From Terramyces sp. JEL0728 (Eukaryota; Chytridiomycota; Chytridiomycetes; Rhizophydiales; Terramycetaceae): DNA of 49,475 nucleotides. The stretch lies in assembly GCA_027603945.1 (NCBI GenBank), contig JADIIU010000096.1, positions 1 to 49,475 on the forward strand. The letters run 5' to 3'. This document shows positions 13,810 to 46,288 of the stretch, piece by piece; within the stretch, counting starts at the first letter, position 1; each line of letters opens with the position of its first letter. The notes beneath the pieces were generated by a model that was not told where the DNA came from, ran no database searches, and saw only the letters and a list, made by a program, of their open reading frames with translations. Made by a program: the position numbers and the translations under genes.

Positions 13810-16800
13810 TTAACCCAAGGTAGATTGCAACTCTTGAGCAGCTTTACGAATCATTTTAGCATTAGCACTTCCAGAATCATTAGTCATTCGAGAAAACAAC
13901 GAATTAGGATCTTGCAATAATTTAAAAGGTGAATCGCATTCAACCACAATTCCATCTGATAACACCAACACACGGTCAAACCCTGCAATAGTATTCAGCC
14001 GATGTGCAATCGAAATAACAGTAGTATTCAGGAAAAAGGTTTTCAAAACTTTTTGAATCAATTGGTCAGATTCTCCATCAACAGCTGCAGTAGCTTCATC
14101 CATCACAAGTATCTTTGGTTGAGCTAAAATAGATCTAGCCAAACAAATTAATTGCCGTTGTCCTAAAGATAGACTTTCTCCCTTTTCGTCAACCCCAGTA
14201 TCTAGTTTATCAGCTTGTTGCTGGAAATACTCTTTTAAACCGACAAATTGCAATGATTCCCAAATCTTATCGTCATGGAATTCTGATTCAGGGTCAAGAT
14301 TTGTTCTAATTGTTCCCTTGAACAAAACAGGATCTTGTGGAATTATTTGGATTGACTGACGCAACTTTTTTAACCCACACTTGGAGATATCTATGTTATA
14401 TAATCTTACCTTGGCCATCTATAAAAATAGAACCTTTTGTAAGTTCCATGATTCTAAATAATGAAGTCATTAATGTACTTTTTCCAGACCCAGTACGTCC
14501 AATAACACCAAGCTTTTCACCAGGTTGGATAATCAAAGACAAGTTCTTGATGACAAAGTGGTCAGGACGAGTAGGATACGAAATGCCTACTTTTTCAAAT
14601 TCAACTTTTCCTTTTGTTGGCCATGCTTCCAAACTAGAATCATAATCGGAAACACGAGCTGATTCTTTGGATAAAGAATTTCCATAATAAAGTAATCGTT
14701 CAACTGAATTCATCTACAGTTAATTCTAGGTACTGTTGCTTCTCCTAAACCTGTAAATTCTAAAACTATTTCCATGATTCTTCCTAAATCGGATGATGAT
14801 TGGATAGCGAGGGCGACTGCTTCAACATTTACACTCCCGTTTGATTTTGATAACACACCGTAAACAATAACCAATAGAGTTATAAATTGCGATAAAATAG
14901 ATAATCTGAATGATAACCAAATCGCAAGTGATGTTTTGACAAAGTAAGAAGCTTGATATTGATCAATTAATTTGTGTTGCTTATGTTCAAATTGTTTTTG
15001 GACGTTAAATGCTTTGATGGTTGATAGTGCTGTTAGTGATTGAGAAACATGAGCGTCCATTGGAGATTTAAGGACAGATTCGATTCTTTGCATGGCCAAA
15101 TTAGAGTTTTGAAAGAACTTGTAAATGTAATAGTAGATTACGAAAACTGCAAACAAAAATATGGAGATATACCCACTGGCTTGTGCAGTCAAAATGGCAC
15201 AGGCAATAAATTCCAATAAGATTGTTGGTAAATTGGAACCAACATAGCAAAGTGTAGAATCAGTTTCATCGATATCGGTGGAAAATCTATTCAAGATCCT
15301 ACCAGATGGGTTACGTTGAAAAAAAGATAGTGGTGCATTGACTACACCATTTAGTGCCATATTGTGCAACGAGGTACTAGCAGCGATAACCAAAAATGGA
15401 CGGAAAATACGAGAAATTACGTTTCCTACCAAATTAATTGCCCCTGCAATTGTATAAAATTCGATGAATCTATCTGATGGAATGTGGTTGTTAACGTTGG
15501 CTACTTGCGTGATCCAGAGTTTTGACCAGACATCGCCTACAAGGGTAGCACCGTACCCCAAGATCAAGATAATTTGCAGAGGATAATTTCCCATTGCTTT
15601 CATATAAGCAAGGAATACACTTCCTTGAACAGATCCCTTAAATTAGAATGACCATACCTTTTCAACCTCTTCTTGTTCGGTAAATTGACCCCCATCTTTT
15701 TCCACAAATTCTTTGCTTTCCACGATTTCTTGTTGAGTACTTTGGTCATCTTCTGAAACTTGATAATTTTCCATTAATTTGACCAATGCTCCGTTCTTGG
15801 ACATCAACTCTTGGTAAGACCCGTATTCTTTAACACTTCCTTCTTCCATTACAATAACTTTATCAAATTGAGGCAAATAGTGCAACTGGTGGGTGACCAT
15901 AAGGACTGTTTTGTGAGCTAGGAACTCTTTGATCGCCATGTCAAACACTTTTCTTCCCACAGATGCGTCAAGGGCAGCTAAAGGGCAATCCAAGAGATAA
16001 ACGTCAGAGTCTTTGTATAAAGCTCTAGCCAAAGATAATCTAGCTTTTTGACCACCTGATAAATTAGAACCTTCTTCTCCGATTTCAGTATTCATTCCAG
16101 CAGATAAGTTTTCCAAGTCTGACGCCAAACAGGCAGCTTTGATACAATATAATAGCAAAAGCTTATCTTCTTTTGAGCCAAACAAGATATTGTTTTTTAT
16201 ACTATCACCCATTATCCATGGCTCTTGAGAACAATAAGCAATCTTTCCTTTGATATCAAAAGTACCAGCAGTCAATTCCAAATCCCCAATTAAACTTGAC
16301 AAGAGAGTAGATTTGCCAGACCCGACATTTCCAACAATAGCAACAAGAGATCCTTTTGGTACAGTTACATTAATTCCATTAAACTGCTTTTGGCTTTCCT
16401 TTTCTTCTTCCAAGTAAGTCCAAGTAGCATTTTCAATTTTGATTGCAACATCTTTATCCAAATGATTTTGCTCCGATTGCGAGCCCTCTTCAGCTAATAG
16501 AAAATCTCGAACTCTTTGCCAATTCTGACGAGTCATGACATAAGTTTGCGAGAGACCACTGACGCTAAGCAAAGGTTCATAGAGTCTTTGAAAAATAAGC
16601 ATAGCAGGAAAGATAATCTGGGGGTCCATTTTACCATTAGTAGCAGAGTATACAGCGAATGTTACGATGGGCATCAAGATTGGGGCAACAGATGACAGCA
16701 GTTGACCGAATGCAAGGACGTAAATAAATCCAACATAGTTATCCCCTTCCATTTCTCTGAGTTTTTGAATTTGCCTAACAAAATAATCTTCCATGGCTTT

Positions 16801-17655
16801 AAACTTTACCACTTGGATACCATTCAACATTTCACGAATCTTTGTTATTCTAGCATCGTTGTTTGTTAAATACGCATCATAGTATTTGCTCATTAAAACA
16901 GAAATGGCCAAGGTAGAGATAAAAGAAACCACAGCATAGCCAACACTTGCCCAGACTGAATTGCCAACCAAAACCAAAAGATATAAAATACCGATTACAA
17001 CACTGAATGGAATTGACCATAAACTATTCACAGCGCGTGGGGCTTCAGAAAGTGCCCTCGAATCATTATTGATCATGTTAATAATTTTCCCAGTTGAGAA
17101 TTCCTTTCTGCTTTTCTGAGACAAACGAAACCTATTATTAATCTAGAAATACGATTTTTCATAAATTGCTGCCATAAGCATTGTGCTAAGGACGGTGCTA
17201 ATCCTACGTATTAACGATTCAACAAGAGCACTACAACAAGCAATTCCAATTTGCAGCCCAAAGTACAAGACGACCAAAGCAGTAATATTTGAAATTATCA
17301 AGCTAGAATTACCGTTTTGCAACCACAAGATAATTTGACCAAATATCAAAGGTGATAAGAAAAAATCTACCAGTACTTTGATGAAATTCAAAAAGTAGTA
17401 CAGAACAAGTTGATAATAGATTGGACCAACCAAGGTCTTGATCAAACTTGGCTTTCTATCAATGTTGGCCCAAAAGAGGTCGAAATGCTTTGTAACTTCA
17501 AATGCAGAGTTTTTTGATTCTAATTTGGGAATGTCCTAATTTTAGTTGTAACATACATTTTTTTCAAGAGTTTCATGGTTTCCTTTCGCAAGTAACGGGT
17601 TTAGCCATGAACAAGTCACTAAATTCCAAAAGTCATTTTTAATGTAGTACTGCAT
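13810..17655 (-). CDS. ABC transporter, ABCC/MRP type, probable NRPS-product exporter
   Basis: Exons 17655-17557, 17535-17153, 17131-15658, 15636-14734, 14713-14410 and 14390-13810 give 1247 aa; the introns are 21, 21, 21, 20 and 19 nt. The order is TMD1-NBD1-TMD2-NBD2 without the extra N-terminal TMD0, so a short MRP4-like full transporter. NBD1 has VGNVGSGKSTLL and LSGGQKARLSLARAL. Its Walker B reads YLLDCPLAALD, with Cys where ABCC proteins usually have the second Asp, so this site is probably catalytically weak. NBD2 has IGRTGSGKSTLM, LSLGQRQLICLARS and ILVMDEATAAVD with the catalytic Glu. The start MQYYIKNDFWNLVTCSWLNP matches the usual ABCC entry into TMD1. It diverges from the NRPS, sharing a repeat-rich promoter, and so is a likely exporter or self-protection pump for the peptide. 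Confidence 0.92.
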
Positions 17656-17960: not shown

Positions 17961-20900
17961 ATGCAAGCTCAAACTATTATCAAATCTACTGCTAACAACA
18001 ATGAAAATGTCCAACAAGATTCCATTAATGCGACTGTCTCATCTGGCGCAAAGGTAATCGAGGCTAAATTTACTAATCCCACTAACCTTTCTAGCGCAAA
18101 TGAACCTCCTCACAGTGTTGAATCTGGTGTCAAGTCTGTTCAAGGTCGTAAATTGGTTGAAAACAAGCCGGTTTTAAACTCAATGCCAAAGGAGTCGAAA
18201 GAAGGTTTTGGTGAAACTCATGTTGAATGCATCTCTGAAGTATCTGTCTCTGGCGAAGACATGGATCAAGAAACTAAAAAATTTTGGATGGACTATTTAG
18301 TAGACGTTGAATCAACTGATGTATCCCAGCATGTTGTCAATCAATTACCAGTATATGCACAAATGAATTTGACCTCTTTAGTTAACATTGACACTTTGAA
18401 TCAAGTTACAGTCACACACAACGTAGAAATGGTAACTGTCGCAAATGCTGCTTGGTCTTGTGTTCTAAAAACATTTTTCCAAAGAGAACATGCCATTTTT
18501 GCAACTATGGATGGGTAATTTTTGATTTAATATAGATATAAAAATATAGTTCCATTCAAATCAACTGTCAATCCTCATGCTGTCTTATCAGAATGGATTC
18601 AAAATTTGCAAAATCAGGCTCAGGTAGTCAAGAAACATCTTGCTCCATTAGAAGCAATCTTGGATCTTACCAACTTGCATGATCACGTGAATTCCCTTGT
18701 GCAATATGAAACTGGGGAAACCTTTACCGAAAAATTTCAAATTCTCTTACATCTCATTTCAACAAATAATAGTTTAGATATAAAAATAGAATACAATATA
18801 AAAGCAATAGAGCCAGCTTTTGCTCAAAGTATGGGCGACTACTTTAATCAGTGCTTGTCATGGATGTGCACCAGTTTATTGCAAAATGATCATGGTTTAG
18901 TCAGTGATATTCTAGTGTTGGAGCCTCTTCAAAAAGCTCAGGTTCTTGCATTCGGAAAAGGACCACTGCGGGATATTCATTTTGATTTGGGACATTTAGC
19001 GTTTGAAAAAATAGCCATGCATGATCCGGATTTGATCGCAGTTGAACAAGATGGAAGATCAATTACCTATGGAGAATTGAACCAACAGGCTAATCAACTT
19101 GCTGCTGCTTTAGTTGGTAAAGGCGTTCAAGTTGGAGATTTTGTTGCAATAGTTACAATCCGATCTATTGAAATGATTATTGGTATTTTCGCAGTGTTGA
19201 AAGCTGGAGCCGCCTATGTTCCTATTGATTCTTCGTTGCCTTTGGAAAGAATTCAGTATATCTTGGAGACTTGCAATTGTCCAATAGTATTGTATCACGA
19301 AGAAATTGAAAGTAGTTTATTCAGATCGCTCAGCAGTACCAATAAAATGGTGAACTTGTGCAGCAGGAAGGAGGTCTCATCAGATCAACTGCCTAGTGTA
19401 GTTCTGAGCAGCTCAGACTCGGCCTACTGTATCTTTACTTCTGGATCTACTGGTAAGCCAAAGGGTGTGGTGATCTCTCACCTCTCTCTTTGTAATTGTG
19501 CTTTAAATGATATTTGTTCGTTTGATTTACGTCGCGGGACTAAGATTGCTCAAATGGCCTCAATTAACTTTGATGTTAGTGTTGGTGAAATTTTTACTGC
19601 ACTTTCAAACGAAGCCACTTTGGTTTTGCGATCCAACTATGACTACTATTCTGTTCTTGATCAAGTGCAAGTGGCTAATTTAACCCCAACGGCATTTGCA
19701 AAGATTCAACCTCACCAATATCCAAACTTGAAACGAATTCTTCTTGCGGGAGAAATGTTTAATCCTTCATTTGCAGACTTATGGGCTGGCCGATTGAATC
19801 TTATAAACAGCTACGGCCCAACAGAAGCCACCGTTATTTCATCCTCAGGTTCTCAAATTCCAGGCAAGCGTGTTCATATCGGTAAACCAGTTCCAAATTC
19901 GAATCAGTATATCGTCGATAGAGAGTTGAATCTAGTTCCAATTGGAGTCCCAGGTGAATTATTGATCGGAGGGGTTTGTGTCGCCCAAGAATATTTGAAT
20001 AGACCTGATTTAACTCGAGAAAAATTCATTAAAAACCACTTCTTGAATGATGGATCAAAAATGTACCGAACTGGAGATGTTTGTAAATGGAGTGAAGATG
20101 GAGATATTATTATGATGGGAAGGAAGGATGACATGGTAAAAATCAAAGGTTACAGAATTGAACTTGATGAAGTCTCTTCCGCTCTCCAAAGACATCCACT
20201 TGTTTCTGCTGCCACTGTGCTAGTTCAACAGGATCAACTTTTCGCTTATATTACGCCTAAAGTTGAGCTTTCTTCTGTTCGTGACTTTATTTCAGATATC
20301 TTGCCACATTATATGCTTCCATCAGTTATTATTCCACTTCATGAACTGCCAATGACTCCGAACGGAAAGGTAATCGAATATTAATATCAGATTGACAAAG
20401 CTGTTTTACGCACTTTAAATGTCCAAGCAGAGTTCCAAAAGCCAGAAACTGAATTGGAGATCAGCTTGGCCTCACTTTGGGCAGACTTGCTGAATGTAGA
20501 GCAACACAAGATTGGCAGATATTCGTCTTTCTTTGAATTTGGAGGAGATTCGATTTCTGCCATCCAATTAGTTGGCCAAGCAAAGGCGATTGGACTGCAA
20601 TTGAACACCACCATGGTTTTCAAAAAGTCCTTATTATTGCAAATGGCACTATGCACAGTTTCGGAAAGCACAAGGTCTGAAATTAAGCCGATTGTTGTTC
20701 CGTAAGATATTTATTTAACGTTAGTGAAATGATAGTTGAGGAAATTAATCAGCAAGTTGAAGATTCTGGTAGTATTGAAGATATGTATCCCGCAACTCCA
20801 CTTCAATCCGGAATGATAGCAAAATCAATGCAAAATTCAAAAGCGTATGTTAATCAAATGAAATTGCAGCTTTCCCAAGAGTTGGATTTGGATCAACTTC

Positions 20901-23900
20901 AACATGCAGTGGATCAAATCACTCGTGCTCATGGAATTTTACGTACCCGATTTGTTTCTACATCTCAAGGAATCTACCAAGTTCTCCAAAAGCAAATCGA
21001 TGCGTTTGTTGAAATACAATCAAGCTTGGAAGAATATTGCTGTGCCGATCTTGAAAGAGGGTTTGATTTACACGAAGTCGCTTGGTTTAGAGTAGCCTAC
21101 ATTAACGGCGCTCAGCCATACCTGATTTTTACAATTCATCATGCGTTATACGACGGTTGGTGTATGGACCAGATTGTGGAAAGCCTGTTCTCTGCGTACT
21201 CTGGAAACATTATTGAACAGAGTGGATCTTTCAAATCAGTTGTGGAATATATCGAATCAATGGATAGGGAAAAGGGTAAAGAATTCTGGAACAGCTATTT
21301 GTCAGATGTGGAGTCATCTACTGGGTTTGGTGGAAATAAGTCATCGCAAAAGGATTTGGTGGTAGACTATGAACCGCATACTTTCAAAGTTTCAGCAAGT
21401 TTGTCTGACATGAAGCTGATTTCATCCAAATATCAGATTACAATGGCTACTCTTGCTAAAGCAGCCTGGGCCTCTACTTTGAAAATGTTTACTCAGCAAG
21501 ATACAGTTGTGTTTGCCAATATTGTTTCCGGAAGAGATATTCCTGTTGAGAATGTGGAAAGGTAATTAATGATTAATTTTAGTATTGTTGGACTATTGAT
21601 GAACTCAATTCCGTTCAAGGCAAATGTCAATCCAGAAATGAACTTGCTGGATTGGTTGAGACAATTACAAGAAAACCACACTTCTACTTTGGACTACTCT
21701 CATTCAAGCTTGGTTGATATTTACAAATGGACCAGCAAGTCTAATCTTTTGAAAACCTCTTTTGTATTTGAAAACATGCCTAACAATGGAGATTCTTCGT
21801 CTGAAAGTTTTGTTATTTCCAACGGACCGGATGCTAACGCAGGAACGTTTAATGAGTATGAAATCCAAGTTGTCCTTTTCCCAACAGAATCAGGTTTAGA
21901 TGTAGAAGTAGAGTATGATTTATCAATTCTGGATGCTTCGTTTGCTCAAAGTATAGGTGACTACTTTAATCAGTGCTTGTCATGGATGTGCACCAGTTTA
22001 TTGCAAAATGATCATGGTTTAGTCAGTGATATTCTAGTGTTGGAGCCTCTTCAAAAAGCTCAGGTTCTTGCATTCGGAAAAGGACTACTGCGGGATATTC
22101 GTTTTGATTTGGGACATTTAGCGTTTGAAAAAATAGCCATGCATGATCCGGATTTGATCGCAGTTGAACAAGATGGAAGATTAATTACCTATGGAGAATT
22201 GAACCAACAGGCTAATCAACTTGCTGCTGCTTTAGTTGGTAAAGGTGTTCAAGTTGGAGATTTTGTTGCAATAGTTACAATCCGATCTATTGAAATGATT
22301 ATTGGTATTTTCGCAGTGTTGAAAGCTGGAGCCGCCTATGTTCCTATTGATTCTTCGTTGCCTTTGGAAAGAATTCAGTATATCTTGGAGACTTGCAATT
22401 GTCCAATAGTATTGTATCACGAAGAAATTGAAAGTAGTTTATTCAGATCGCTCAGCAGTACCAATAAAATGGTGAACTTGTGCAGCAGGAAGGAGGTCTC
22501 ATCAGATCAACTGCCTAGTGTAGTTCTGAGTAGCTCAGACTCGGCCTACTGTATCTTTACTTCTGGATCTACTGGTAAGCCAAAGGGTGTGGTGATCTCT
22601 CACCTCTCTCTTTGTAATTGTGCTTTAAATGATATTTGTTCGTTTGATTTACGTCGCGGGACTAAGATTGCTCAAATGGCCTCAATTAACTTTGATGCTA
22701 GCGTTGGTGAAATCTTTACAGCACTATCAAACGAAGCCACTTTGGTTTTGCGATCCAACTATGACTACTATTCTGTTCTTGATCAAGTGCAAGTGGCTAA
22801 TTTAACCCCAACGGCATTTGCAAAGATTCAACCTCACCAATATCCAAACTTGAAACGAATTCTTCTTGCGGGAGAAATGTTTAATCCTTCATTTGCAGAC
22901 TTATGGGCTGGCCGATTGAATCTTATAAACAGCTACGGCCCAACAGAAGCCACCGTTATTTCATCCTCAGGTTCTCAAATTCCAGGCAAGCGTGTTCATA
23001 TCGGTAAACCAGTTCCAAATTCGAATCAGTATATCGTCGATAGAGAGTTGAATCTAGTTCCAATTGGAGTCCCAGGTGAATTATTGATCGGAGGGGTTTG
23101 TGTCGCCCAAGAATATTTGAATAGACCTGATTTAACTCGAGAAAAATTCATTAAAAACCACTTCTTGAATGATGGATCAAAAATGTACCGAACTGGAGAT
23201 GTTTGTAAATGGACTGAAGATGGAGATATTCAAATTATGGGTAGAAACGACAATATGGTGAAAGTGAAGGGCTACCGTATTGAACTGGATGAAGTCTCTT
23301 CTGCTCTCCAAAGACATCCACTTGTTTCTGCAGCGACGGTAATTGTCAAGGATGGGCATTTAGTTGGATTTGTCACGCCAAAAGTAGATATTAATGAAGT
23401 GAGGGGTTCGTTGATGGAGATTTTGCCGTATTATATGGTACCTTCAGCTATTGTATCTTTGAACGAACTACCAGCGACAACGAACGGAAAGGTATTTATC
23501 AAACTTATTTAGATTGACAAGAGTGCATTAAGTTCCCTTGATTATCGTATTGAATTTGCGCTCCCTACAACAGAAGATGAAATGAACCTTGCGTCTATTT
23601 GGAGCAAAGTATTGAATGTCAGCCTTGGGAAAATTGGTAGGGATACTTCTTTCTTTGAAATTGGAGGTGACAGTATATCTGTATTGCAAATGTGTTTTAA
23701 GTGCAAAAAACTTGGATGGAGCTTAAGTTCGTTTGATGTCTTCCAAGCCCAAACTTTGTCGCAAATGGTAAAAGCCAAGGTTGATTTAAAAAAGAAAGCT
23801 AATTACAATACTGAAATTGTTGGACCAGTACAGTTCACCAACATTCAAAAGATTTATCTCCGCAACAATGGCTCTTCAGATATGCACTACACTCAATCGA

Positions 23901-26900
23901 TGGTTGTCGAATCTAAATTGAACATTTCAAAATTGCAACTGCATAGTTTGCTTAAACAACTGGCAATTCAACATGATATGCTCAGGTCTGTATTCCAAAT
24001 AGATTTTCAGGGAGTTATTACACAAACGATATTGCCAGTCTCTGAATTAACTATTTTGGAACCATTGGTGGAAACATGCAATTCAGTGTCTGAAGTTGAA
24101 GATTATCTTTTCAATGTACAGTCATTGATATCTATCGAAAAGGGGATTGTATTTGCTACTGGGTTGTTTGAATTCAAAAATCAACAGCATCTGTTCTTTA
24201 CAATTCATCATTTGGTGGTAGATCTTGTATCCTGGAGAATTATTTTCGAAGATATTGAATTATTATTAAACAAGCAACCGCTTCCTGATAAGACAATGTC
24301 ATTCCAGGAATGGAGTAATCAATTAGACGTGTTCAGCAGAGATTTCGCTTCAGATTGGAAAGAGCATTTACGCCCAATTGTCAACACTATTCAATCTACT
24401 TTAATTTCAAAGTCGAAAATGCCAATGCAAATAACCAGCATAGATTTCACAGTTTCAGAGGAATTCACTTCCTTACTAGATCAAGCCAATCTACCATTTG
24501 AAACGAATATCCAAGATGTTATCATTGCTTCTATGATTCAATCTTTAACTCAGTTAGCAGGTGAAAATTCTTCTATCCGTTTCCATTTAGAATCTCATGG
24601 AAGAAATCCTTGGGAGAAAGACCTCGACATTTCTCGAACCGTGGGCTGGTTTACCTCTATATTCCCCGTCGCTTTTGATGTCGAGTCGGACATTCTAAAA
24701 TTACTTCCAAAGGTGAAATCTGTTATAAGATCGGTGCCAAATAAGGGTGTGGATTACAATTCTGATTACAACGCCGACAAGGAAGAAGTCGTCATTGCTT
24801 TTAACTATCTTGGGAGATTCCAGCAGTTTGAAAATTCTAAATCCAATTTTAGTATTATTTCAAAGTTTGATCAAAAAGATACCGGAAAAGGTTACGTGTC
24901 AAATAATGATGTGGTTATCTCAGCTATGCATGAAGGATCGGATTTGATTGTATCTGGCGATTTCAATGAAAGAGTAAGTAAATCGGTAATGACTGACTGG
25001 TTCCGTCACTCAAAAGAAATTTTTCAACGAAACTTGATCTGCTTGTCCACTCAGAAACCGTTTAGAACGTTGGAAATAAAGACTTCAGAGTCCAACCAAT
25101 CCCCAAATAGCCACAGTAAGCTTCAGGAAAAGTTCCATCTGATCAAGGCATTATTTGAAAAAGAAATGCAGGAGAGGAAAATTCCAGGTTTGGCATTTGC
25201 AATGGTGACTAAGGATGAAGCAGGAACACGCCAAACTCTCACGGCTGGAATTGGTAAAGCAGTGCACAACAAAAGCAAATTTGTTGACAGCAATTCGCTA
25301 TTTGGTGTAGGATCTCTTTCGAAATTTATTTTAGCAGTTGCAATAGGACAAATGGTGGATGAACGCAAACTTGACTTTTACAAACCTGTCAAAGAATATT
25401 TTCCACAATTTAAGTTGACTGATGAATATGCAACCGCCAATACTACTTTAATTGACTTGCTATCACACCGAACTGGGGTACCAACTGCAAACTTTGCGCA
25501 TGCTCAAAATTGGGACATATTTACCGCCATGGAACAAATATCTTACGCACCTCTTGTTGGCGAATTTGGAAAAAGCTTCAATTATCAAAATACTTTGGTG
25601 GCATTTGCTGCAACTTTGCTTGGAGGTAGTAAAGATGATCCTTTTGAAGAGTACAAGAATCGAGTTCAGGAAATGATTTTCAAACCGCTTGGAATGAACG
25701 ACACAACTGTTGATTATTCTGCATATTTAAAGTCAAATAATAGGAGTATTCCCCACAAATGGTCACTTGATAAACCAGATCCCATTGAACAATATCCAGA
25801 TAACATCAATGAAGATGCAAAACCATCAGGTTCAGTTATTACCAGCATTTCAGACTATGCAAAGTGGTTGGAATTTATCATCGACATGTCAAATAATGCT
25901 ATGGAAAATCCTATCGTTTCAAAGAAAGTATTTGATACAATCACGTCACCGCATAACGGGGAACATGGATTGGGTGTCATGTCGATGAGCGCAATGGGAC
26001 ACAAATTGCTGTATCACGATGGTAGTGTTTATGGGTTCAAAAGTATTATGTTTGCAATTCCGGAATTGGATTTTGCTTTCGCATTATTCACAAACGCTGA
26101 TCAGTCATTGGGAAGTTTAAACGAATTATTACCCGATATTTACAACATCCTATTTAATCAAGAAGTCGAATTGAAAAAAATCACAGAAGAAAGATACAAA
26201 TTGCTAAAGAACATCGAATTGGCTGGTTTGAAGTCGAATGCAAGAAATTCAAACATCAAGAATACCCTTCCATTATCAGAATATTGTGGTGTGTATAGTC
26301 ATTCGTTTTATGATCAATTTATTTTAAAAGAGTTGACAACGGACGGCTTTGCTTTTGCCATGCATATTGGCAAAGACATTTATCATTTCATTCACTATGA
26401 ATGTGATTCTTTTGTAGCTTCAACCTCACTTCATCAAGCAATAATAGATCCAACTTTCAAAGTGCAATTCAAAATTGTTAATGGGAAAGTAGTTGGGTTT
26501 GAAAGCTCTTCGAAAGCATTTGATTATCCAATCGTTTATTTTGAAAAAATTGTTAAGGAATACCTTGAAGGTAAAGTTATTGACTAATTTAGATGTTCAA
26601 TCGGAAACATCTCATATTACTCGTCAAGGTTCAGTTTCCAGCTTCAACTCTGTTGTCAATGAAATTGATGATTATTTAAAGGAGACTAAACTCGCCACAA
26701 GATATGAATTCAAACAAAGGCACCTAAAGGTTGTCTGCTTGTGTCCATCACACATAAACTTGGACTCATTTATTCAAAAGTTCAAAAATATTGTGGAATT
26801 GCTTGGCTCTGTTGCAGAATTCTCCTATATTGTGGTGGATACCAGTATCCTAAAAGGCAAGTCATGGTATTCCAAACTGTTCAAAAATGATCAGAAAGCA

Positions 26901-27353
26901 AAACTGAATCTACTTATGACTCGCGTATATGAAAAATTAGTAGAAATTGGAAAGGTGGATGCTATTCTTGGCTTTGCAGACGCAGCAGCACTAATTGAAA
27001 TCCTTGATGGCAAGGTGCAATCAAACGAAATTGCCATCACTTGGAACTTTAGTATTTTACTTTCAGGCTCTCCAGTCAAATCAAAATCACGTTGTCCACA
27101 TCCAGCTACAGCGTTAATAGTCAATGGTGAAAAGGAAGGAATTAAAGTCCGAACAGGCTTACTGGATAGATACAATGTGTTATCTAGAGAACACTTGGAA
27201 CACAACTCAGGTCAAGAAATTCCCCAAAACACTGAATTCATTCGCAAGTTTGCTGACAAAATCTTTAGAATGGCAATTAATGAACGCAAAAGGGAAAGAA
27301 AATCATCAGAAATTGACATTGTTACTTCAGCAATCAATATGGATTATATTTAA
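17961..27353 (+). CDS. Two-module NRPS with epimerase, PBP-type hydrolase and FSH1-like tail
   Basis: Exons 17961-18514, 18536-20369, 20391-20701, 20725-21561, 21583-23491, 23513-26570 and 26593-27353 give 3087 aa; the introns are 21, 21, 23, 21, 21 and 22 nt. Approximate order by residue: disordered leader 1-95; C-terminal remnant of a condensation domain without HHxxxDG, 96-310; A1 320-796 (FTSGSTGKPKGVV, YGPTEATV); PCP1 with GGDS near 850; C 915-1335 with HHALYDG; A2 1345-1815; PCP2 with GGDS near 1862; epimerase 1920-2335 (HHLVVDLVSW, RTVGWFTSIFPV, FNYLGRF); S12/beta-lactamase fold 2357-2715 (Ser2416-Leu-Ser-Lys2419, Tyr2506-Gln-Asn, His2650-Asp-Gly); FSH1-like fold 2850-3087, with GFADAA where GFSxGA is expected. 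It should assemble a short peptide whose second residue is epimerised. Release probably falls to the S12 domain, since there is no classical thioesterase. Confidence 0.93.
18819..20108 (+). repeat. 1290-bp near-identical A-domain block, copy 1
   Basis: This block and 21941-23230 align without gaps at an offset of 3122 bp. I count 13 differences in 1290 bp, about 99% identity. It covers the linker and the substrate-binding core of A1. Identity falls sharply just outside both ends. Confidence 0.93.
21941..23230 (+). repeat. 1290-bp near-identical A-domain block, copy 2
   Basis: Partner of 18819-20108, covering the equivalent part of A2. The only pocket position seen to differ is the one equivalent to GrsA 236: Val in A1 and Ala in A2 (FDVSVGE versus FDASVGE). 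Confidence 0.93.
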
Positions 27354-30060: not shown

Positions 30061-30175
30061 TTAAACAAGTGCAGATTAATCTACTCCAACATTCGACAAT
30101 AAAGCAGTTCAATTCATATCATATCTACCAATTATCGAGTGGCTCATTTCTAGTCTCGGTATTTTTCTCATTTTC

Positions 30176-31582
30176 ATGCTTTCCGAAATCTCGAATGAAC
30201 TCTCAACAGTTGGCCATTTCTTGCCAATTCAAGACTACCAACACTTGAGATTGTCATTCAGGAATTCTCTTCCGTTGCAGCAACAAATCAATCCAGCCGC
30301 ACTTGATGCAGCCTACCTAACCAAATCAAAAAAGGACTTTTCTAGTTTAATTACCATTCATTCCAATTACATTACAGAAACGGTTATTCTAGACTTGTTC
30401 AAATACAAGCTTTACGAGTTGCTTACTAGGAAAGAATACACAATCCCTGAACAGTACGTTGCGTACTTTATGTTTGAAATCACACTTGGTAGCCACCTCA
30501 ACCAGGAATTGGTTTTGAAATTGATTCCAATGGTACCCATAGGCACGGCTGGATTTGAACGGTATAGAGGGGTTGGATCTTTAGCTAGGGCAGTCAAGCA
30601 TTTCAACGCACAAGCATCGCTCTCTTACCTCCTCGCTCGCGTTTTAACTGCTGGATATACACGACTTGCAAAACGGTTATTATCAACTGATTTCAAAGTA
30701 ATTGATTGGTTTCCTTTTCATATTACACTATACAGAGACGATTTGATTTTGCTTGCCCTTGAACAAGTACAGATCAAATCCAATTTGGGGATATATAATG
30801 TCCTAGAGTATCCAGTAACCAACGGAATGCTTTCTACGGTACAAGCCATCTTATCAAAACCCGGCATTACTTTTCTATCTAAAAATATCAAACTTGCATT
30901 CTCATTGGGGTTCAATGAAATAGTGCTGGAAATATTGAAATACAAAGAGTTTAATATGAATGATATACTTGGATACGAACTGGACTTGTTTGAATTTGTG
31001 TTTGGCAATATTCCCATTGCAGATGAATTCAAACAGCAAGTGTTTAATGCAGCAATTGAAAAGAATTCTAGAGTTTTCGACGCTCTGTTTTCGTCTGTGG
31101 ATCTTTTGGATAACAATAGCGAGTGTTTGAGAACCGCTTGTTCAACAGGAAATGTAGAGTTTGTCACAAGGTTATTGAATGATGGTAGAGTTGATCCTGA
31201 CCATGCTATGCAAGCTAGGAAATGGCACCCGGGACTACTTGAACTGTTTCTTGCAAACCCCAAATTCTCAATCGACAGTAACTGGATTGTTCAACACTGC
31301 TTGGATATTCACGATCTAAAAGTATTGTTGAATGATAAGAGAATCAATCCGGTTGCTGGCAATCACTTGCTCAAATACGCAGCAGACCGCTCTGATTACG
31401 AAATGTTTAAGCTCTTGATTGCGCTTGATTTTGATTTTGCTGTTGATAATCACTATGTATTTCGGAGATTGGTAACAAAGAAAGCCAGAGAATGTTTGGA
31501 GCTGCTCATTAGCCATCCGAGGTTCAAGATGGAGTTGCCTATTGAGTGGTTGGAAAAGAATGGGTTGAATAAAGAGCAATAA
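30176..31582 (+). CDS. F-box-like/ankyrin-repeat-type protein, paralogue 1
   Basis: An intronless frame of 468 aa. The N-terminus SEISNELSTVGHFLPIQDYQ followed by HLRLSFRNSLPL looks like a degenerate F-box-like helix bundle. The rest is a string of helical pairs typical of divergent ankyrin repeats (for example NVEFVTRLLNDGRVDPDHA, YEMFKLLIALDFDFAVDN and ARECLELLISHPRF). It is closely related to the next gene and more distantly to 45017-46288. Such proteins often act as binding platforms or ubiquitin-ligase adaptors; the F-box reading is inference. AATAAA appears about 35 nt past the stop. Confidence 0.75.
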   Translation: MLSEISNELSTVGHFLPIQDYQHLRLSFRNSLPLQQQINPAALDAAYLTKSKKDFSSLITIHSNYITETVILDLFKYKLYELLTRKEYTIPEQYVAYFMFEITLGSHLNQELVLKLIPMVPIGTAGFERYRGVGSLARAVKHFNAQASLSYLLARVLTAGYTRLAKRLLSTDFKVIDWFPFHITLYRDDLILLALEQVQIKSNLGIYNVLEYPVTNGMLSTVQAILSKPGITFLSKNIKLAFSLGFNEIVLEILKYKEFNMNDILGYELDLFEFVFGNIPIADEFKQQVFNAAIEKNSRVFDALFSSVDLLDNNSECLRTACSTGNVEFVTRLLNDGRVDPDHAMQARKWHPGLLELFLANPKFSIDSNWIVQHCLDIHDLKVLLNDKRINPVAGNHLLKYAADRSDYEMFKLLIALDFDFAVDNHYVFRRLVTKKARECLELLISHPRFKMELPIEWLEKNGLNKEQ

Positions 31583-31673
31583 TCTGTATCTCATTCTGCC
31601 TGTAATCGTGTTCAATAAATCTTATTCTAATTGAGATGCCAGATCCTCGTTCGAGTCACTCAACTTTACAAAA

Positions 31674-33071
31674 ATGCTCCACCAAATTTCCAATGAACTA
31701 TACCTTGTTGGACAATACCTGCCAATTCTAGAGTACCAGCACCTACGCATCGCATTCATAAACACACTGCCACTGCAGCAAATAGCAAACCCGCTTTCCC
31801 TTGATAAACAGTTTCTGGAAAAGAGAGACCTCTCCCATTTGATCGCAATCACACCAGCCTACATTGCGGATAAGGTTATTCTGCAACTATTCGATTTTGG
31901 ATTACATCAGGCATTAGTTGATTTGGATATTCCACCAGCATTCATTCCGTTTTTCATGATACGTATAATCACTGATGAATTTCAATTGAATCCACATCTG
32001 GTATCGAAAATGTTGCCTTTTATACCAAGTGGTACGAGAGGGTTCACTGGATCTACTTTGGAGAATGCCAAACCAACCGATTACAATTCGTTCTATACCA
32101 GATCTAATATCCCCTATCTAACAGCACAAGCAGTGCACAAAGGATACATTGATTTGGCCAAGGAACTCTTGTCAAGTGAATTAGTTGCAGTTTTAGGATT
32201 TCCTCTTGCCTACAATATGTACCATGAAGAATTAATTGGGCCAGCAATGACGCAAAGATTTGTAAAAAGCGGACTTGGTGATCACGATATACTCGAGTAT
32301 CCAGTAAAGAATGGAATGAGAGGTGTAGTAGATATTATTCTCTCGTGCCCTGGCGTTGGTTTCTTGTCAAAGAACGTTAAACTGGCGCATTCATTAGGTC
32401 ACTGTGATATCGCACTTGCATTACTAAAACACAAGGAATTCAACTTTACCGATGTACTCGCCTATGACTTGGATGTATTTGAATTTGTCTACGATAGCAT
32501 CCCAATCCCACCTAAATACATGGATCAAATGTTTATTGCAGCAACGAGTAAGAATTCGCGGATATTTTATTCATTGTTTGATACAGTTATAGATCCATCT
32601 GTATCTGGCAGTGTGGCATTGGCAGTCGCAAGTACAAACAACAACATTCCTTTTGTAACGAAACTGCTAGATTGCAGTTCAGTGGATCCGAATGTAGTGA
32701 AAAAAGATACCAAATGGCATGCAGGGCTACTTGAACTATTCCTCAAGCATCCGCAGTTCAAAGTAGAAAGTGGATGGGCAGTCAGACACTGTCTAGATAT
32801 AAACGATTTACATATTCTGTTGGGCGATAAAAGGATTGAGCCAACTGCCAACAACTACTTGCTTAAATACGCAGCAAGCAAAGCAGATTTGGAAATGTTT
32901 AAACTGTTGATTCCGTTAGATTTTGATGTTGCAATTGAAAATAATTATGTGTTTAGGAAACTGGTGTCCAAGAAAGCCAGGGAGTGTTTGGAATTGCTGG
33001 TTGACGACAAGCGATTCAAGATGGAGCTGCCAGATGGCTGGTTGGAAAAGAATGGGTTCAGTAAACGATAA
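31674..33071 (+). CDS. F-box-like/ankyrin-repeat-type protein, paralogue 2
   Basis: An intronless frame of 465 aa, aligned along its length with the preceding gene (LYLVGQYLPILEYQHLRIAF versus LSTVGHFLPIQDYQHLRLSF; YVFRKLVSKKARECLELLV near the end of both). The two are tandem duplicates about 90 nt apart and divergent in sequence, so the duplication is not recent. Helical ankyrin-like pairs fill residues about 130-465. The stop is TAATAAAG, overlapping the poly(A) signal, and the next gene converges with only 7 nt between the stops. Confidence 0.75.
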   Translation: MLHQISNELYLVGQYLPILEYQHLRIAFINTLPLQQIANPLSLDKQFLEKRDLSHLIAITPAYIADKVILQLFDFGLHQALVDLDIPPAFIPFFMIRIITDEFQLNPHLVSKMLPFIPSGTRGFTGSTLENAKPTDYNSFYTRSNIPYLTAQAVHKGYIDLAKELLSSELVAVLGFPLAYNMYHEELIGPAMTQRFVKSGLGDHDILEYPVKNGMRGVVDIILSCPGVGFLSKNVKLAHSLGHCDIALALLKHKEFNFTDVLAYDLDVFEFVYDSIPIPPKYMDQMFIAATSKNSRIFYSLFDTVIDPSVSGSVALAVASTNNNIPFVTKLLDCSSVDPNVVKKDTKWHAGLLELFLKHPQFKVESGWAVRHCLDINDLHILLGDKRIEPTANNYLLKYAASKADLEMFKLLIPLDFDVAIENNYVFRKLVSKKARECLELLVDDKRFKMELPDGWLEKNGFSKR

Positions 33072-45016: not shown

Positions 45017-46288
45017 ATGAAATTGATCAACGAGCTACATTTGATTGCAGTTCACTTGGACTTGCAGACTTACCACAATCTTCGATTCTCGATGAAATGT
45101 CCGCTTCCAAAGGTGCAGAAAGCGAGTACTTTTCAATACAAACAGACTACAATAGAATATCCAAAAACCCACGATATTTCAGAGTACATTTCTACCAGCA
45201 ATGATATGTTTGAATTCTTTTGTATGAATAACCACCTGTTTATTATCAGGAATATCATAAACCAGATACCAATGCAGCTCATCAACGATATGCTTGTGGA
45301 GTTGGTATTCAGCGAACTAGAATTTGATGTTGAGCTGGGCTACATACTGTACAAGAATTGCCAGTTTACCGATGTGGACGATTTGCTCTTTCGGGTGATT
45401 GAAACCAACGATATAAACTTTGTCAACGAACTAATGGAAATTGTTGATATTGCAGTAGAAAATAATTACGCTATTAGACAGGCTTGTTTGTTTGGGTACT
45501 ATGATATGGTAAAGCTGCTACTAGAAAACGGAGCTGATCCAAGCGACTTTAATAACGACGCCTTATTCTCTGCAACCCAAACAGGATCTTTGGAAATTGT
45601 TGAATTGCTGCTAAGAGACCCAAGGGTAGACCCTAGTGATATGCAATCGATAGCTTTCAGAAATGCATGTAGCAACGGACATTACGAAATAGTGAAATGC
45701 TTTGTACAGGATAACAGAACAAATTTCCAAGCAGACAACAATTTCGGACTGTATATTGCATGTGAAAACGAATTTACAAATATTGTCGAGTTGCTTAAAG
45801 ATATCTGCGACCCAACTGACAATGATTTTCAAATATTCAAAATTACATTGGAAATTGGTAATTTAGATATCCTCAAATTGCTATTAAAGGAAAGAGACTA
45901 TACGTTTGATTTAGTAGGGTTTGCGACCATGCAGAATCAGCCAGCGATTGTAGAATACCTATTATCCATAGGAATAGACCCTACAAAGAATGACTGTTTC
46001 TGTCTTAGACATGCGGTCAAGCATCAATTACTAGATATATTTAAACTGCTACTAATAGACAATAGAGTCGACCCATCAATCAGGAATAATTATCCCATTG
46101 GAAAGGCCAGCGAGCTGGGCAACACAGAAATGGTCCAGATGTTACTGCAACGCGATGTAGACCCCAATGACGAAGATTATTATGCATTGAAAGCTAGTTA
46201 TATCAACAAACATTTCGATATAGTGAATCTACTGCTGCAGGATCATAGACTAAAGAACCCAAATATAATTGCAAGTATGTTTCAATAA
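45017..46288 (+). CDS. Ankyrin-repeat protein, paralogue 3
   Basis: An intronless frame of 423 aa. An F-box-like start (MKLINELHLIAVHLDLQTYH, then NLRFSMKCPLP) resembles the N-termini of 30176-31582 and 31674-33071. Canonical ankyrin repeats follow from about residue 155, including GYYDMVKLLLENGADPSD, GSLEIVELLLRDPRVDPSD, GHYEIVKCFVQDNRTNFQ and HFDIVNLLLQDHRL. The protein should be a binding scaffold; the partner is unknown. The stop is CAATAAAT, again overlapping AATAAA. Confidence 0.85.
   Translation: MKLINELHLIAVHLDLQTYHNLRFSMKCPLPKVQKASTFQYKQTTIEYPKTHDISEYISTSNDMFEFFCMNNHLFIIRNIINQIPMQLINDMLVELVFSELEFDVELGYILYKNCQFTDVDDLLFRVIETNDINFVNELMEIVDIAVENNYAIRQACLFGYYDMVKLLLENGADPSDFNNDALFSATQTGSLEIVELLLRDPRVDPSDMQSIAFRNACSNGHYEIVKCFVQDNRTNFQADNNFGLYIACENEFTNIVELLKDICDPTDNDFQIFKITLEIGNLDILKLLLKERDYTFDLVGFATMQNQPAIVEYLLSIGIDPTKNDCFCLRHAVKHQLLDIFKLLLIDNRVDPSIRNNYPIGKASELGNTEMVQMLLQRDVDPNDEDYYALKASYINKHFDIVNLLLQDHRLKNPNIIASMFQ

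Follow-up and report, generated by a model that had tools for sequence, protein, structure and literature searches.

An epimerisation domain and a putative SurE-like serine hydrolase in tandem at the end of a nonribosomal peptide synthetase of the chytrid Terramyces sp. JEL0728

The window analysed here, a stretch of 49,475 nucleotides (nt), comes from the chytrid Terramyces sp. JEL0728 (order Rhizophydiales) and spans the entire contig C96 of its assembly (15.0 Mb in 231 contigs). It carries a gene encoding a nonribosomal peptide synthetase (NRPS) whose spliced model is identical over all 3087 residues to the deposited hypothetical protein HDV01_007836. The order of its domains is truncated condensation (C), adenylation (A1), carrier (PCP1), C, A2, PCP2, epimerisation (E), a serine hydrolase of the S12 type followed by a beta barrel, and FSH1. 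The gene, its domains and the introns of the splice model are the following.

17961..27353, plus strand: NRPS gene from start to stop codon, 3087 amino acids once six introns are spliced (HDV01_007836)
18390..18869, plus strand: truncated condensation domain, probably vestigial, covering only 238-434 of the 456 profile positions (Pfam, 15.5 bits, under the cut-off of 30.6)
18515..18535, plus strand: intron 1, 21 nt
19002..19997, plus strand: adenylation domain A1 (Pfam)
20370..20390, plus strand: intron 2, 21 nt
20466..20624, plus strand: carrier domain PCP1 (Pfam), GGDSIS
20702..20724, plus strand: intron 3, 23 nt
20777..21997, plus strand: condensation domain, HHALYDG
21562..21582, plus strand: intron 4, 21 nt
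22124..23119, plus strand: adenylation domain A2, its DNA nearly identical to that of A1
23492..23512, plus strand: intron 5, 21 nt, with an in-frame stop immediately upstream of 23513, where a preliminary description of this DNA began its interval
23588..23773, plus strand: carrier domain PCP2 (Pfam PP-binding, 39.6 bits), GGDSIS
23834..25078, plus strand: epimerisation domain E (Pfam Condensation), HHLVVDLVSW, FHLESHGR and FNYLGRF
25145..26116, plus strand: S12 serine-hydrolase domain (penicillin-binding protein (PBP)/beta-lactamase fold), SLSK at 25313-25324, YQN at 25583-25591, HDG at 26015-26023
26243..26506, plus strand: beta barrel of the DUF3471 type (Pfam, 23.2 bits, under the cut-off of 29.3), with strands in the structure model
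26571..26592, plus strand: intron 6, 22 nt, separating S12 and barrel from FSH1; retention would lead to a stop at 26585-26587
26838..27248, plus strand: FSH1 domain, with Ala at the nucleophile position (26976-26978) and Gln at the histidine position (27213-27215)

PCP2, E and S12 lie on one exon within a single open frame (23513-26587), so that no splicing event drops S12 while leaving E as it is. The preliminary description had proposed a fungal multi-intron NRPS with an S12 domain in cis behind E, and this is borne out by the single exon and by the identity to HDV01_007836. The motifs that it listed (SLSK, NYQN, HDGS, HHLVVDL and FNYLGRF) are all present in its interval, 23513..27353, and the profile search that it suggested matched both PF00144 and PF03959 above the Pfam cut-offs. 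It had also claimed that a classical thioesterase is missing, and no such family appears in the Pfam results for the five pieces scanned. The E domain matches Pfam Condensation with 133.2 bits and keeps the motifs HHxxxDxxSW and NYLGR, while the match of NCBIfam TIGR01720 in this region (30.9 bits) stays below its cut-off of 74.2. A terminal E with its motifs shares an exon with S12, and a D-residue is predicted at the end of the chain.

The S12 domain matches the Pfam Beta-lactamase family (PF00144) with 149.5 bits, the cut-off being 27. It retains SxxK, YxN and HxG, the forms that these motifs also take in SurE, and the motif residues are invariant in 20 of 20 aligned rows, its own row included. 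None of the best 25 of its 38 NCBIfam matches reaches its own cut-off. In the AlphaFold model of S12 and barrel (mean predicted local distance difference test score, pLDDT, 80.6) the strands of the C-terminal barrel are found at positions 407-494, and Foldseek aligns this model to SurE and Ulm16 over 484-515 columns, albeit with a root-mean-square deviation of 7.0-9.2. In the ranking of its Foldseek matches, which we count in favour of a SurE-like role, the IS11 esterase, Pab87 and the Lip3 DL-peptidase, in this order, come before SurE (four chains at ranks 6-9), Ulm16 (rank 10) and a D-aminopeptidase (rank 11). Two features of the SurE family, an S12 fold with its motifs and a C-terminal lipocalin-like barrel, are both present. 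According to passages of a 2024 review, SurE, PenA, Ulm16, FlkO and WolJ also combine an S12-like with a lipocalin-like domain but act in trans (PMC11735501), whereas the S12 of the window is fused to an NRPS and lacks the stand-alone state that is a further feature of the family.

Upstream of E, the DNA of A1 and A2 is nearly the same (18825-20091 against 21947-23213, 12 differences), so that the two modules probably incorporate the same or similar residues. The stretch that forms the substrate pocket holds five of the 12 differences, clustered at 19576-19604, and they change one pocket residue from Val to Ala. The pocket codes read DVGNLASVI and DAGNLASVI, at positions which we take to be those of the GrsA numbering, the usual Lys being assumed. 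The pattern can be read as a recent homogenisation with the pocket segment spared or selected.

In the mechanism that we propose, A1 would load the first residue on PCP1, the C domain would link it to the residue placed on PCP2 by A2, and E would convert this second residue to its D-form, leaving L-X-D-X on PCP2. The serine of SLSK would then accept the chain from PCP2, in the way that a D,D-peptidase or SurE handles a D-ended substrate, and release would follow through attack by the amine of the peptide itself or by water. With the amine, a two-residue chain would yield a diketopiperazine (cyclic dipeptide) and two chains joined after a second round a cyclic tetrapeptide. That S12 acts in this SurE-like manner, in chain release on a D-ended chain, we hold with moderate confidence, at about an even chance; its D-specificity, release as its function and cyclisation as against hydrolysis are what we infer. 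Release by S12 is favoured because the terminal E should give a D-end, because D,D-peptidase-like folds accept D-ended acyl groups and because the two ends coupled by PBP-type thioesterases are an L N-terminus and a D C-terminus. This last coupling is described in passages of the review mentioned above, which presents PBP-type thioesterases as stand-alone enzymes (PMC11735501).

The S12 motifs fit an acyltransferase of the LovD/EstB type equally well. S12 folds are able to perform acyl transfer, as LovD and EstB do, and the peptidyl group on the serine would in this case be passed to an external alcohol or amine, the NRPS making a dipeptide ester or amide. A short chain of two residues is a plausible group to transfer, but the 10 open reading frames (ORFs) scanned with Pfam, a small sample of the window, contained no recognisable acceptor pathway. 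We consider such a transfer unlikely, at a probability that still weakens the SurE-type interpretation. LovD was not among the best 50 Foldseek matches of the model, SurE, Ulm16 and LovD were not among the best 50 VIA-align matches, and SurE and Ulm16 were not among the best 60 of 142 PDB profile matches; none of these absences is a sign of a difference.

The better matches by sequence or fold include ClbP, Lip3, a D-aminopeptidase and a D-amino-acid amidase, and S12 could accordingly be a D-stereospecific peptidase for trimming or maturing the released product, like ClbP with colibactin, the release itself occurring by other means. However, a fusion directly after E suits a carrier-bound over a diffusing substrate, the other hydrolase of the protein, FSH1, is without catalytic residues and a two-residue product offers little to trim, which makes this role improbable in our view. 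The fold-search matches also contain PDB entry 8kem, titled PKS domains-fused AmpC EC2, a possible further case of a megasynthase with a fused S12 domain; its title phrase gave no paper in a literature search.

The FSH1 tail, joined after the 22-nt intron, matches PF03959 with 26.8 bits (cut-off 21). Its catalytic residues can be judged against a second NRPS of the same genome, located on another contig.

L025:1-3191 (contig C202), strand not stated: partial NRPS in the order C, A, PCP, FSH1, with GFSQG and GHEIP intact

As in the window, the FSH1 tail of C202 stands behind a carrier domain, and the two tails are 35% identical. The C202 tail keeps GFSQG and GHEIP, whereas the window copy, which is preceded by E and S12, reads GFADA and GQEIP and has lost both the nucleophile Ser and the His. 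The FSH1-like domain of the preliminary description is thus present without being catalytically intact, and this loss weakens the reading given there. The C202 NRPS starts inside a gene at the edge of its contig and shows a frame change near base 1510; the copy is partial and may be imperfect, the change being an assembly error or decay. FSH1 fused to an NRPS elsewhere was sought among 580 candidates, of which only the query itself matched, in a search that is weak since the domain of the window is degenerate. In the PDB, sequence searches gave no match for the C202 copy (E-value 0.01) and none for the window copy (E-value 10). A structure model of FSH1 alone had a mean pLDDT of 40.4 and was discarded.

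The simplest story is that these NRPSs originally released their products through FSH1, which S12 then replaced in the gene of the window, although the reverse order is possible and the direction is one that we infer. FSH1 would be a former release thioesterase whose Ser and His were lost once S12 had taken the job, leaving a pseudo-hydrolase tail. Such a takeover within one genome, in which a D-specific S12 of bacterial type was inserted behind E and supplanted an ancestral fused FSH1 that is now a dead tail, is put forward tentatively, as somewhat short of an even chance. No eukaryotic NRPS is known so far to use a cis-fused PBP-type domain for product release, so that this one would be the first, and also the first in which such a domain directly follows E.

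The relatives of S12 were sought in several ways. A search of proteins of about 560-1790 amino acids gave 24 matches at 22-28% identity, and all those with a named organism are bacterial save one mushroom protein. Many of the matched DUF3471-type serine hydrolases carry the same layout of S12 plus DUF3471. Among NRPS-length proteins (a word-limited search of 4253 candidates) the matches were the query itself and one bacterial S-layer/S12 protein (E-value 1.1e-4); a near relative of S12 turned up in no further protein of this length. In addition, a pattern scan of GTDB confirmed at least 451 relatives.

By sequence and by tree, S12 is closest to DUF3471-type serine hydrolases (CubicO group; Bacteroidota, Acidobacteriota and others), although these are separate non-NRPS proteins whereas S12 is fused. 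A first tree of 65 rows comprised the S12 domain, three solved structures, six genes of the fungus itself, 25 out of 26 database proteins (P0025, the self match, was omitted) and 30 GTDB loci (the first among the 80 whose match spanned the domain); a second, of 44 rows, was the same set minus 21 long-branched or near-duplicate rows, with four of the fungal genes kept. Neither contained SurE or LovD rows. S12 nests within the DUF3471-type clade in both trees. Its clade has 26 rows in the larger tree (support 98/97), the others being either bacterial or unnamed database proteins, and 20 rows in the smaller one (support 99/99). Given the long branch and a choice of rows by similarity, this placement shows kinship with a bacterial-type group without proving a transfer, and it could change with fungal relatives that the trees did not sample.

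The genome holds six further S12 genes, two pieces on contig C47 being counted as one. Only two of them match the S12 of the NRPS by tblastn at an E-value of 1e-2 or better (best 4.9e-6), and none groups with it (six in the larger tree, four in the smaller). On account of these weak matches and separate placements, an origin by copying from the S12 proteins of the fungus is not favoured. Contamination or an assembly chimera was also rejected, in view of the single open frame of PCP2, E and S12, the host-like codon use and the 35% identity of the FSH1 tail to that of C202. In its codon use S12 resembles E, FSH1 and nearby host ORFs, for which four were pooled as the reference.

The surroundings of the bacterial relatives weigh against a role of S12 in release. 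Flanks of up to 10 kb per side, many of them shorter, were analysed for the best 80 of the GTDB loci. C, E or FSH1 matches of the NRPS gene were found at 0 of 80 loci in the available flanks, unlike the arrangement in the window; the A domain was matched at 3 of 80. The preliminary description had named as a refutation the nesting of S12 among stand-alone housekeeping beta-lactamase-like esterases devoid of E-PCP context, and tree and flanks go part of the way there, although the single exon leaves no doubt about the fusion. The position of S12 among bacterial hydrolases without NRPS context in the available flanks weakens the interpretation given in that description.

From the same relatives it could be supposed that S12 is a passenger without a role for the NRPS, the dipeptide leaving by itself, through E-assisted cyclisation (a route proposed for NRPSs that end in E) or through a separate FSH1 enzyme. 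A fungal NRPS that ends in E and has no thioesterase is described in passages of PMC7253712. Moreover, FSH1 matches also occur outside NRPSs in this genome, one of them an unfused FSH1-type gene with FSQGG on contig C8 (L027:612-1349), about 1.3 kb from the last listed ORF of an NRPS for which it may be a release enzyme in trans. The intact motifs and frame of S12 and its host-like codon use, with a decayed FSH1 behind it, nevertheless suggest a fusion that is neither fresh nor decaying, and we give the passenger role a low probability.

The proposed release by S12 has a counterpart in bacteria. In BifB (biffamycin A; Streptomyces albidoflavus S4) an S12/PBP-type domain is likewise cis-fused at the end of an NRPS, and passages of that report state that this embedded SurE domain is required for product formation, its deletion having abolished the product (PMC13285481). 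The SurE family thus has a cis member. BifB is bacterial, its last module is C-A-PCP-SurE with no E and its last residue is Gly (same passages), whereas the NRPS of the window is fungal, with E separating PCP from S12 and with a degenerate FSH1 at its end. A cis-fused PBP-type release in a eukaryote had been presented in the preliminary description as a new architecture. Cis-fusion as such has been reported in bacteria with BifB (2026), which weakens the novelty of that interpretation. Among the literature matches listed (titles and abstract openings) there was no eukaryotic NRPS with a fused S12 domain, no paper on this gene and no E-S12 tandem; by the word-limited search of NRPS-length proteins, the order of E then S12 and the eukaryotic host look new. 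In the passages of a 2010 survey of fungal NRPSs, the end position that S12 has here is occupied, and the product released, mostly by C or R domains and in a few cases by thioesterase domains, NRPSs are scarce in chytrids, S12 is absent from the release domains and "lactamase" occurs 0 times in the main text (PMC2823734).

Short introns are found elsewhere in the genome. The NRPS piece on C202 (L025) can be spliced with introns of 20 and 21 nt, and three chaperonin genes (CCT, Hsp60-type) were tried: an uninterrupted frame results for L111 when introns of 19, 23 and 20 nt are removed, for L115 with one of 21 nt and for L112 with 17, 20 and 21 nt, the 17-nt one being doubtful. The fitting of the chaperonin introns admitted 17-30 nt only, and the frequency of longer introns is not deducible from it. 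Introns of about 19-23 nt are thus seen in two NRPSs and in CCT and Hsp60-type genes of Terramyces sp. JEL0728; no chytrid with such introns was among the literature matches listed, where the ultra-short introns are those of ciliates. Were intron 6 (26571-26592) retained, the protein would end at 26587, directly behind the S12 barrel, and a single NRPS gene could in this way yield two forms, one of them without the degenerate FSH1 tail.

In the NRPS on C8 (L026:2602-8818) the order carrier, C, A, carrier, C is apparently preceded by an initial acyltransferase stretch (GHSQG) that resembles fatty-acid synthases. It is possibly an acyl-loading NRPS, the acyltransferase and first carrier having been assigned from ORFs by eye only. 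Within the window, two ankyrin-type ORFs of similar appearance stand adjacent in tandem (30080-31582, which was scanned with Pfam, and 31635-33071), and a further ankyrin-like ORF was read by eye at 45017-46288. Head-to-head with the NRPS gene lies a transporter that could export its product.

13810..17535, minus strand: ABC transporter gene in several ORFs, divergent from the NRPS start; ABC_membrane and ABC_tran in 15643-17142, the one ORF scanned

If the proposed role is true, a D-specific S12 domain behind E would give the fungus a SurE-like route to close or free D-ended peptides, and the same fold would be fused to NRPSs in bacteria and in fungi. Peptide engineering would also gain a release domain that is compact and acts in cis. 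With an intact and a decayed FSH1 tail in one genome, the swap of release domains becomes testable.
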